Assembly: GCF_014652695.1 (NCBI RefSeq) | Contig: NZ_BMZH01000004.1 | Location: 62,001-126,000, forward strand | Origin: Algimonas arctica | GTDB lineage: Bacteria > Pseudomonadota > Alphaproteobacteria > Caulobacterales > Maricaulaceae | Direction of reading: 5' to 3' | DNA length: 64,000 bases | In this document: piece by piece, positions 2,296 to 46,356 of the stretch | Position numbering within the stretch: the stretch's first letter is position 1 | How the letters are laid out: every line of letters starts with the position of its first letter | Notes under the pieces: generated by a model | The model's database searches: none | What the model saw: the letters and a program-made list of their open reading frames with translations, nothing else | Told to the model about the DNA's origin: nothing | Translations under genes and position numbers: made by a program

Positions 2296-3014
2296 TAGGC
2301 CACCTCTGATGCTTCGGAGACACCAAAACGTCGGTTTCTGCCAGTATATTCTTTTAATGCGGCGACGAGTTCTTCCCGACCAAAGTCGGGCCAAAGAACA
2401 TCCGTGAAAACAAATTCGGCATAGGCGGCTTGCCACAATAGGTAGTTCGAAATGCGCTTCTCTCCACTTGTCCGAATTACTAGGTCGGGATCTGGTAGAT
2501 CGGCCGTATCAAGATAGCCGGCGAAATCAGCTTCGGTCATCTCTTGCAGGTTAGCCCCATCAGCGGCGGCCCGCTGGACCGCGCGTATAATCTCGTCTCG
2601 GCCACCGTAATTAAACGCAATGTTGAGATTGAAATGGGTGTTTTCGGCTGTCTCTAAAACAGCCCGGTCGACCAGCCGGAGGATATCTTTCGATAGGCCC
2701 TTGCGCGTTCCAAGGATGCGAATGCGAACCCCTTCGCGTTTAAGTCGGTCTAAATCCGCCTCAATAAACTCGCGCATCAATGCCATTAAGGCCGCGACTT
2801 CCGCTCTAGGACGCGACCAGTTTTCAGTCGAGAAGCTATACAGTGTCAGACATTTGATGCCGATTTTTGAGGCATCTTCGACGATCCGCCGAACGCTTTC
2901 TACACCGGCGCGATGACCAAACCCACGCGGCCGATGCCGCGCCTTGGCCCACCGCCCATTCCCATCCATAATGATGGCAACGTGCTGCGGAATAGCGCCG
3001 GAATATGTCGTCAA
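2295..3014 (-). CDS. uppS: Isoprenyl transferase (undecaprenyl diphosphate synthase)
   Basis: Cis-prenyltransferase that condenses IPP onto FPP to form the C55 carrier lipid for peptidoglycan and other envelope polymers. 239 residues, usual size. The catalytic region IIMDGNGRWAKARHRPRGFGH is near the N-terminus (catalytic Asp at about residue 17). TLYSFSTENWSRP and the C-terminal DPDLVIRTSGEKRISNYLLWQAAYAE are typical. It sits between frr and cdsA in the conserved order and is translationally coupled to cdsA by a one-base stop/start overlap. Confidence 0.96.
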   Translation of the reverse strand: MTTYSGAIPQHVAIIMDGNGRWAKARHRPRGFGHRAGVESVRRIVEDASKIGIKCLTLYSFSTENWSRPRAEVAALMALMREFIEADLDRLKREGVRIRILGTRKGLSKDILRLVDRAVLETAENTHFNLNIAFNYGGRDEIIRAVQRAAADGANLQEMTEADFAGYLDTADLPDPDLVIRTSGEKRISNYLLWQAAYAEFVFTDVLWPDFGREELVAALKEYTGRNRRFGVSEASEVA

Positions 3015-3040
3015 ATCATATGTATCAGGATCAGAAATCG

Positions 3041-43529: not shown

Positions 43530-44408
43530 ATGTTGGAAAAACCCTATCACGATCGCGACGGCCATATCTGGGTCGATGGCGAGTTCGTCGACTGGCGCGA
43601 TGCGAAAGTGCATGTCCTCACTCACTCACTGCATTACGGTTCAGCCGTATTTGAAGGCAATCGCGCCTATGACGGTAAAATTTTCCGGCTCTCGGATCAT
43701 TCGGTCCGTCTGAAAAACTCTGCCGAATTACTCGGTTATGAAATCCCCTATACGGTTGAACAAATCGATCAGGCCTGCCGCGACACGCTCGCGAAATCAG
43801 GCCTGAGCGACGCCTATGTTCGCCCTGTCGCTTGGCGCGGGTCGGAAATGATGGGAGTAGCGTCCAAAAACAACATCATCCATCTCGCCGTGGCGACATG
43901 GCATTGGGGCAATTATTTCCCCGATAAGATGAAAGGCATTCGCCTGATGATATCGGACTGGAAACGCCCCGCCCCCGATACAATTCCGTGCAAATCCAAA
44001 GCAGCAGGTCTGTATATGATCTGCACCATGGCCAAGGACAAAGCCGTCGCAACGGGGTGGGATGATGCGTTGATGTATGATTATCGTGGCCGTGTCGCGG
44101 AATGTACGGGCGCGCATATTTTCTTTGTCCGTGACGGAGAACTCCACACCCCCACAAATGACATTCTGCTTGAAGGCCTGACCTACGACACCGTGATCAA
44201 GCTGGCCAAGAAGCGTGGCATCACCGTCCATCGCCGGGATATCTACCCCAGCGAAATTCCCCATTTCCAAGGCTGTTTCGTGGTTGGCACCGCGGCTGAA
44301 GTGACGCCCGTGCGGGACATTGACGGCAATCAATTCACTGTCTGCGATACGATCAAGAGCCTCGCTGCTGATTATGATGCGCTGGTTCGCGGCAAAATCA
44401 CGCTTTAA
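43530..44408 (+). CDS. ilvE: Branched-chain amino acid aminotransferase
   Basis: PLP-dependent class IV transaminase making Val, Leu and Ile from their keto acids. 292 residues. WRDAKVHVLTHSLHYGSAVFEGNRAYDG at the N-terminus, the PLP lysine in CKSKAAGLYMICTMAKDKA (about 153), the ALMYDYRGRVAECTGAHIFF loop and EIPHFQGCFVVGTAAEVTPV. GGAG about ten bases before the ATG. Followed by a GC-rich hairpin. Confidence 0.95.
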   Translation: MLEKPYHDRDGHIWVDGEFVDWRDAKVHVLTHSLHYGSAVFEGNRAYDGKIFRLSDHSVRLKNSAELLGYEIPYTVEQIDQACRDTLAKSGLSDAYVRPVAWRGSEMMGVASKNNIIHLAVATWHWGNYFPDKMKGIRLMISDWKRPAPDTIPCKSKAAGLYMICTMAKDKAVATGWDDALMYDYRGRVAECTGAHIFFVRDGELHTPTNDILLEGLTYDTVIKLAKKRGITVHRRDIYPSEIPHFQGCFVVGTAAEVTPVRDIDGNQFTVCDTIKSLAADYDALVRGKITL

Positions 44409-44422
44409 ACTTAAGGCATAAT

Positions 44423-44444
44423 CCGACGCCCAACCGGGCGTCGG
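44423..44444 (+). terminator. Hairpin after ilvE
   Basis: Perfect 9-bp stem CCGACGCCC / GGGCGTCGG with a four-base loop, 15 bases past the ilvE stop. There is no T-run, so it may work as a Rho-assisted end or an mRNA 3' stabiliser. The remaining stretch to 44584 holds nothing else I can support. Confidence 0.5.
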
Positions 44445-44584
44445 AGCCGCGACAAACGCCTGTTTCGTGACATGACACTAGCGTGGACGCTCCCCCGGAC
44501 CGATGACCGTTATCACCGTCGGATCAGGGAACTGTTTGAGATTTAGAACGTTGGATGAGTTCAAGATCATAAACAGAGTTCATT

Positions 44585-44902
44585 ATGAAAACCGTCGCCA
44601 TCATCGCAGCATTATTCAGCGTTTTCGCTGGGTCGTCAGTCGTCTACGCTGATCAAGCGGGATTATCTGTAAGACACCTCGCGACGACAAATGCGTCAGA
44701 GTTTCCAGACCATTTTGTCACAAAACCCGTAACATCAATCATGCCGGGCATCGTTGTCTATCAAGACAATGGAACCCGCTTGGGCGCTGTTAGAGCGGTC
44801 ATTCACAACAACACAGTCGTGAATAAAATTTATATCGGCACATCAGAATACTCCGCCGATGCTATCACGATTGAGAATGGCCGCGCGATTTACAGAGCGT
44901 AG
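44585..44902 (+). CDS. Small secreted protein, unknown function
   Basis: 105 residues with a clear signal peptide (MKTVAIIAALFSVFAGSSVVYA, about 1-22) and a mature domain of about 83 residues rich in Val, Ile and Asn (VYQDNGTRLGAVRAVIHNNTVVNKIYIG). No cysteine, no known motif. Ribosome binding site is weak (CAGAG). Stands between ilvE and the sufA remnant, in a visibly more AT-rich stretch than its neighbours. Confidence 0.6.
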   Translation: MKTVAIIAALFSVFAGSSVVYADQAGLSVRHLATTNASEFPDHFVTKPVTSIMPGIVVYQDNGTRLGAVRAVIHNNTVVNKIYIGTSEYSADAITIENGRAIYRA

Positions 44903-44955
44903 GTACGTCGCTCATCGTGGTGTTTTTAGGCGATATAGAAACGCCTTTAAACGCC

Positions 44956-45105
44956 TCAGCCTAGCACGGGCACAATCGTGACGCTTTCGCCATAACCGCA
45001 GGCATCAGTCTGGTTCGGGTTTCGGAAGGTAAACTTGCTATGCAGTAGCGTCGTTTCGTGATCGACAGCCGCCAAAAGTTGCACAGTTGGCACGGCCCCC
45101 ATATG
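44956..45105 (-). pseudogene. Remnant of a duplicated sufA 3' end
   Basis: Minus-strand frame ending in VDHETTLLHSKFTFRNPNQ, then TDACGYGESVTIVPVLG and a TGA, almost identical to the C-terminus of the intact SufA encoded at 45973-46356. Plus-strand bases 44953-45072 match 45970-46089 at 105 of 120 positions by hand alignment. The copy lacks the N-terminal two thirds and the first conserved Cys, and the second of the paired C-terminal cysteines has become Tyr (CGCG to CGYG), so it cannot bind Fe-S normally. Upstream it runs into the hydrolase gene region. Confidence 0.85.
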
Positions 45106-45113
45106 CGTGTGCA

Positions 45114-45923
45114 ATGGAAAAATTTTTACTATCAGCAATACTGATAACGCTTGCCTCTTGTAATTCGTCCGTCTCGCAGACTGCATTCGTCAATGATGTA
45201 ACGCTTGATTATATCATTCGAGGAGATGGACCCCCGCTCTACCTTTTGCATGGCGGGATGGAATCTCGGGACAGTTTCGATCAACAAGTACATGAGCTTT
45301 CTAAGACGTTCACAATTGTCGCGCTGGATAGCCGTGAGCAAGGACGGAGCAGTCGTGCGGATACACAAATTTCCTATACTCTCATGTCAAAGGATGTCGT
45401 CGCCCTTGCAAAACATTTAGGCCATGATCGTATCTCAATCATGGGTTTAAGCGATGGAGGTGTAACCGCCCTCACCACAGCCATGAACAATCCAAATTTC
45501 GTCGATAAGTTAGTCTTGCTTGGCGCAAACTATCATTTTGAGTCCTATCCCGAGGCGACACGCAGTTTTATCGCAAACTATAAATGGGACGGAAACACCA
45601 ACCCAAATGGCTATCCCGGAAATTTCATCGAGCACTATTTGACAGGGCAGGATGACTTAACTGAATTTGGGGACTTACTCGAAGAGATGTCAATCATGTG
45701 GACGACAAGCCCAACCTTCACCATTTCTGACCTCGGAACAGTCCAAGCAAAGACGCTCATCATTAACGGCGACCGTGAGGATATGGGGCTAGACCACGCA
45801 TTATCGCTCTATAATGCGTTGCCAAATGCTCAGTTATTTATTGTTCCGAATGGGACACACTATGCTTTGGCGGAAAAGCCAGAGCTTATAAATTCAGTCA
45901 CATTAGAATTCTTAAATCAATAA
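45114..45923 (+). CDS. Alpha/beta hydrolase, putative lipoprotein
   Basis: 269 residues. N-terminal lipoprotein signal with lipobox LASC (about residues 11-14), then an alpha/beta hydrolase fold: oxyanion HGGMESRDSF, nucleophile elbow GLSDGG, acid Asp in NGDREDMG and His in PNGTHYALAEKPE. Substrate unknown. Codon use is more AT-rich than nearby genes and there is no good ribosome binding site before the ATG, both consistent with recent acquisition. Flanked on both sides by sufA sequence: the remnant upstream and intact sufA downstream. Confidence 0.82.
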   Translation: MEKFLLSAILITLASCNSSVSQTAFVNDVTLDYIIRGDGPPLYLLHGGMESRDSFDQQVHELSKTFTIVALDSREQGRSSRADTQISYTLMSKDVVALAKHLGHDRISIMGLSDGGVTALTTAMNNPNFVDKLVLLGANYHFESYPEATRSFIANYKWDGNTNPNGYPGNFIEHYLTGQDDLTEFGDLLEEMSIMWTTSPTFTISDLGTVQAKTLIINGDREDMGLDHALSLYNALPNAQLFIVPNGTHYALAEKPELINSVTLEFLNQ

Positions 45924-45969
45924 TCATTTGCGTTGCTGGGGATTGCTAACGCGACCTGACACTATCTCT

Positions 45970-46089
45970 GCCTCAGCCGAGCGCAGGCACAATCGTGACA
46001 CTTTCACCGCAACCGCAGGCATCTGTCTGATTCGGGTTCCGGAAAGTGAACTTGCTATGCAGCAGCGTCGTTTCGTGATCGACGGTCGC
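45970..46089. repeat. Direct repeat: sufA 3' end, original copy of the 44953-45072 duplication
   Basis: The last 117 bases of sufA and the three bases after its stop form this 120-base copy. The partner lies about 1.0 kb away in the same orientation, on the far side of the hydrolase gene. Homology starts abruptly just past the sufA stop and fades within the coding sequence. Confidence 0.85.
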
Positions 46090-46356
46090 GCCCAAAATGA
46101 ACAAGACAGCTTTGGCATCGACGACAATTTTAACGCCTTTGTCTTCGACAACTTCGTCAAATTTGGCCGGCTCGGAAACGTAATCCATCATATATTCCAT
46201 GCCCGCGCAGCCACCATTTTTGACGCCAACACGCAGAAAGCCTTCGCCGCGTTCCGCCAAAATTTCGCGCACCTGATCGGCGGCGGCATCCGTGAGTGTG
46301 ACCAGCTTGGGTCGGGCACGGCGGCTTTCAGATATCATACGATCTTTCAGGCTCAT
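45973..46356 (-). CDS. sufA: A-type iron-sulfur carrier (SufA/IscA family)
   Basis: Carries Fe-S clusters from the SUF scaffold to target proteins. 127 residues with the three ligand cysteines: C50 in GVKNGGCAGMEY, and C114 and C116 in DACGCGES. The start ATG overlaps the stop of the sufT-like gene (ATGA). Last gene of the suf cluster; its 3' end is duplicated about 1 kb further on. Confidence 0.93.
   Translation of the reverse strand: MSLKDRMISESRRARPKLVTLTDAAADQVREILAERGEGFLRVGVKNGGCAGMEYMMDYVSEPAKFDEVVEDKGVKIVVDAKAVLFILGATVDHETTLLHSKFTFRNPNQTDACGCGESVTIVPALG

Follow-up and report, generated by a model that had tools for sequence, protein, structure and literature searches.

Displaced 3' ends have been described in T6SS effector, Rhs and CDI loci, in which conserved upstream sequence anchors a new module and the former 3' end is moved further away, so that the conserved gene carries a new 3' end with a new downstream gene and the old end is orphaned (PMC5361080). 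Foreign DNA bracketed by a direct repeat of a gene end is also found where genomic islands and phages occupy gene 3' ends. Small variable segments are short stretches of accessory DNA between core genes, without a mobile element and sometimes flanked by direct repeats, and homology-assisted illegitimate recombination has been proposed as the origin of many of them (PMC2884548); homology-assisted illegitimate joining is known experimentally in competent bacteria (PMC3240628).

The end of the suf operon of Algimonas arctica was analysed within a 64-kb window (the whole stretch of DNA under study). Here a foreign gene lies between two copies of the 3' end of sufA, an arrangement that recalls all of these systems. 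It differs from the T6SS effector, Rhs and CDI loci in that the gene concerned is a core Fe-S gene whose product is conserved, the event is a single one, toxin and immunity genes are absent and the new gene lies on the opposite strand. Unlike islands and phages at gene 3' ends, the sufA locus has no nearby integrase, tRNA or known target, its cargo is 0.9 kb, and its repeat is 12 % diverged throughout, where a short identical att core would be expected. Compared with small variable segments, its repeat is longer than most and consists of a diverged coding tail. The locus is most likely an ordinary one-off recombination or import scar rather than a novel type of mobile element.

The first-pass annotation had reported a direct repeat matching at 105 of 120 positions, and alignment and self-BLAST bore this out: 44953–45072 and 45970–46089 are direct copies of 120 nt (87.5 % identity) with a start-to-start spacing of 1017. 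In a self-BLAST of the window the pair scored E = 5e-36 and was the sole internal repeat at E ≤ 1e-3. The repeat is real. The block begins inside sufA and ends just past the stop codon (TGAGGC). Feature coordinates are collected in Table 1.

Table 1. Features at and around the duplicated sufA 3' end (positions within the window)
Feature	Position	Strand	Evidence
ilvE, left neighbour, core gene	43530..44408	+	NF005726, 466 bits
105-aa protein, likely signal peptide, accessory	44585..44902	+	Weak homologues in 3/17 congeners only
sufA 3'-end remnant, last 38 codons and stop	44956..45072	-	105/120 identity to 45970–46089
Alpha/beta hydrolase, predicted lipoprotein (MEKFLLSAILITLASCNSS)	45114..45923	+	Pfam Abhydrolase_1, E 2.5e-22
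Matching 3' end of intact sufA	45970..46089	-	Alignment to remnant
Intact sufA, final gene of suf operon	45973..46353	-	TIGR01997 and TIGR00049 profiles

Elsewhere on the 276-kb contig, short local direct repeats occur in regions that are repeat-rich or paralogue-like; of these, only the repeat at the contig start was read, and it was rejected as a second such case, as it consists of tandem paralogues with a common N-terminus. These paralogues (L206:581–3038 on contig C4, outside the window) share the N-terminal motif LTKHVKDQNWxAVALDFFIVV; the array includes a truncated fourth N-terminus (2953–3036) and adjoins a tyrosine integrase gene (L206:3299–4621, minus strand). The two ends of the contig (C4:1–103 and 276571–276673, in L206 and L217) are identical 103-bp sequences in inverted orientation, perhaps the termini of a repeat at which the assembly was interrupted, and two long diverged direct-repeat arrays (63–77 % identity) at C4:159900–165850 (L211 and L212) perhaps encode repeat-rich surface proteins.

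The intact sufA is 76–86 % identical to the single sufA copies of congeners; it scored above the cut-off of TIGR00049 and reached 130 bits with TIGR01997 (sufA_proteo), slightly below the cut-off of 136.2. The remnant, placed about 40 bases before the start of the hydrolase gene, is still an open frame without frameshift or early stop (AAVDHETTLLHSKFTFRNPNQTDACGYGESVTIVPVLG then stop, against ATVDHETTLLHSKFTFRNPNQTDACGCGESVTIVPALG then stop in sufA), and by tblastn it was 90 % identical over sufA residues 87–126. Reading both copies confirmed that the far one has exchanged a cysteine of the CGCG motif for tyrosine (CGYG) and lacks the SufA N-terminus, as had been claimed; a longer remnant masked by indels was looked for, but no significant match was found. 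Set against the three conserved cysteines and full-length fold of A-type Fe-S carriers, 38 codons and a stop are left and one CGCG cysteine is Tyr. No convincing promoter or terminator contributed by the remnant was found, and the remnant is probably without function.

The gene between the copies had been described as an AT-richer lipoprotein hydrolase, and this description holds, the product being a predicted lipoprotein. Its segment has a GC content of 0.451, compared with 0.538 for the window, and its ORF is intact, with the lipobox LASC, a nucleophile motif GLSDGG and a C-terminal NGTHY read from the sequence. The nucleophile, acid and His residues of the alpha/beta hydrolase superfamily could likewise be read, and the match to Abhydrolase_1 (80.2 bits) was above the cut-off; no NCBIfam equivalog cut-off was reached. 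The nearest solved structures are those of valacyclovir hydrolase and related esterases, and the product is probably functional, as an esterase of the cell surface or periplasm. Only distant homologues were found in 40 relatives. Among 348 genomes of the order there was one homologue of 67 % identity, in a genome of another family (G244), the next best being 33–34 %, and the best homologues in 385 genomes of the class were also 33–34 % identical. No close relatives were found in GTDB contigs or IMG/VR, and all homologues in a plasmid search were below 60 % identity. In G244 the gene is flanked by an epimerase-like gene on one side and a short ORF on the other, away from suf and without an adjoining sufA, and shares no DNA with the window outside the coding region. 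The hydrolase is sporadic and foreign to the genus, because the genus holds no close homologue, the 67 % relative belongs to another family and the GC content is 45 % against 54 %.

Differences between the two sufA tails fall mainly (12 of 15) at third codon positions. If constrained third positions are taken to change at the rate seen between sufA and that of G017, the nearest congener, at least 12 such changes among 15 would have a probability of about 0.025 if the remnant had decayed neutrally beside a constrained sufA. In a tree of 91 tails, remnant and sufA were sisters with a support of 100, at a distance of 0.21 compared with 0.55–0.57 to G017 (about 0.4 times), so that the tail originates within this sub-lineage but is not a recent copy. 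The third-position differences and this clade together favour a tail that diverged as part of a working sufA, either that of a sister lineage or the displaced end of the resident gene, over a fresh, decaying self-duplication, at a likelihood ratio of only about 9:1 for coding constraint on both copies against neutral decay of one (15 differences in all). The tail would thus have separated from the sufA line once the known congeners had split off, yet long ago, and have existed mostly as coding sequence since. No donor genome was found in the search, the closest relative of the tail being the genome's own sufA, and at the differing sites the letters of relatives match the remnant about as often as sufA, so that the resident copy cannot be told from them.

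We favour, with a probability of about one half, the reading that foreign DNA was imported beside the last suf gene and left the locus as its scar, homology in sufA having served as the anchor and the opposite end having been joined illegitimately. An incoming linear fragment would have carried the sufA 3' end of a sister lineage with the hydrolase gene downstream; the gene sequence common to both would have let it recombine with the resident sufA, while its other end would have been joined without homology within the final 39 codons of that gene. Such a scar would combine a homologous junction on one side with a non-homologous one on the other, and non-homologous edges were seen. The outcome would be an intact sufA, its 3' end complete, then the new gene and then the displaced, spare sufA tail, now decaying (Cys to Tyr); as a whole this is the best explanation at about even odds. 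An import of this type accounts for the foreign gene, the complete sufA and a displaced tail with coding-type divergence all at once. The repeat, its uniqueness, its coding-type divergence and the foreign hydrolase are shown, whereas we infer which tail is resident, how the ends were joined and the joint arrival of tail and hydrolase, to which the G244 homologue, with no sufA beside it, lends no support. The genome encodes a protein of the ComEC DNA-uptake channel family, which would permit natural transformation; gene transfer agents would serve equally for such a transfer. Of the two origins that the first-pass annotation had offered for the insertion, a diverged copy brought along by import is the better fit and is retained at moderate strength, with a foreign hydrolase and a partial sufA unique among relatives, whereas a fresh duplication of the sufA end fits less well.

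Third-position divergence and a tail closest to the genome's own sufA would also be expected had an ancestral tandem duplication of sufA left both copies functional for a while, the second later being truncated by insertion of the hydrolase or by deletion. This would require a long-lived duplicate restricted to one lineage, and no tandem sufA was found in 17 congeners, 137 genomes of the family or about 95 further loci. The partial sufA itself occurs in this genome alone among the 18 of the genus, a second sufA match in this genome alone among the 137 of the family, and none of about 95 other fetched sufA loci, some of which overlap the genus set, holds the partial copy. Neither a remnant without the hydrolase nor an ancestral tandem sufA, the observations that had been named as speaking for old duplication, was seen in the relatives searched, and a tandem origin appears improbable, if still the most credible competitor of import.

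The surroundings of the locus bear on a further reading, in which the remnant is a by-product of the joining of ilvE to suf: repair of the break would have duplicated a portion of sufA, with separate arrival of the hydrolase and the 105-aa gene. Adjacency of ilvE and sufA was found in none of the relatives checked, and no empty site was found there; where both genes lie on one contig they are at least 35 kb apart, and elsewhere they are on different contigs, so that an empty ilvE–sufA interval has no counterpart. The blocks flanking both sides are conserved, whilst 44409–45972 aligns to no suf or ilvE region of a relative, the sufA tail excepted. The gene ssb, the neighbour of ilvE in G014, is on another contig in this genome, and the FAD monooxygenase that neighbours sufA in G014 and G017 is represented in this genome only by a 31 % homologue. 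The 105-aa protein had no Pfam or NCBIfam match, and its congeneric homologues (29–36 % identity) are at unlinked places. On these grounds (separation of ilvE and sufA in relatives, unaligned interval, flanking neighbours elsewhere, accessory 105-aa gene) the whole 1.56-kb interval is lineage-specific accessory DNA at a synteny break. Both the lineage-specific adjacency and an interval made up entirely of accessory DNA are what a junction by-product would predict, but a tail copied during such breakage would decay without coding constraint, contrary to the 12 third-position changes, unless the break were old and both tails selected; this origin is accordingly rated as unlikely, below tandem duplication. 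A perfect 10-bp inverted repeat (TCCGACGCCC/GGGCGTCGGA) at 44422–44445, right after ilvE, is perhaps the terminator stem of that gene, though without a T-run.

Likeness to islands that restore the 3' end of a gene at their attachment site had also been suggested; in this reading the locus would have arisen with the hydrolase cassette as the leftover of a small element integrated site-specifically at the sufA 3' end. As with element-borne gene ends, the repeat spans the end of the gene and stops right after the stop codon, and it brackets a foreign gene in direct orientation. Similarity ends at both edges of the block: anchored gapped alignment gave no significant match outside it (p = 0.30 upstream and 0.77 downstream), no boundary repeat common to both ends was found beyond the 120-bp block, within which the longest identical run is about 20 nt and the 87.5 % identity extends across the whole, and a search for terminal inverted repeats around the segment gave nothing but short chance pairs. 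The nearest Phage_integrase match on the contig is about 100 kb away, in a search that covered tyrosine recombinases, and the window holds no tRNA gene. A second tail after the sufA 3' end was seen in no other case among more than 100 loci, and a cassette of 0.9 kb could not integrate unaided. The suggested likeness was thus not upheld, and site-specific integration is rated as very unlikely. Still less credible is a small type of cassette that inserts at sufA 3' ends by unspecified means and brings a replacement tail so that the core gene survives.

Read as an import scar, the locus is one clean case in which a foreign gene has come to lie next to a core operon with no integrase involved and with the core gene left unbroken. 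The scar is roughly datable, and the general picture is unchanged by it.
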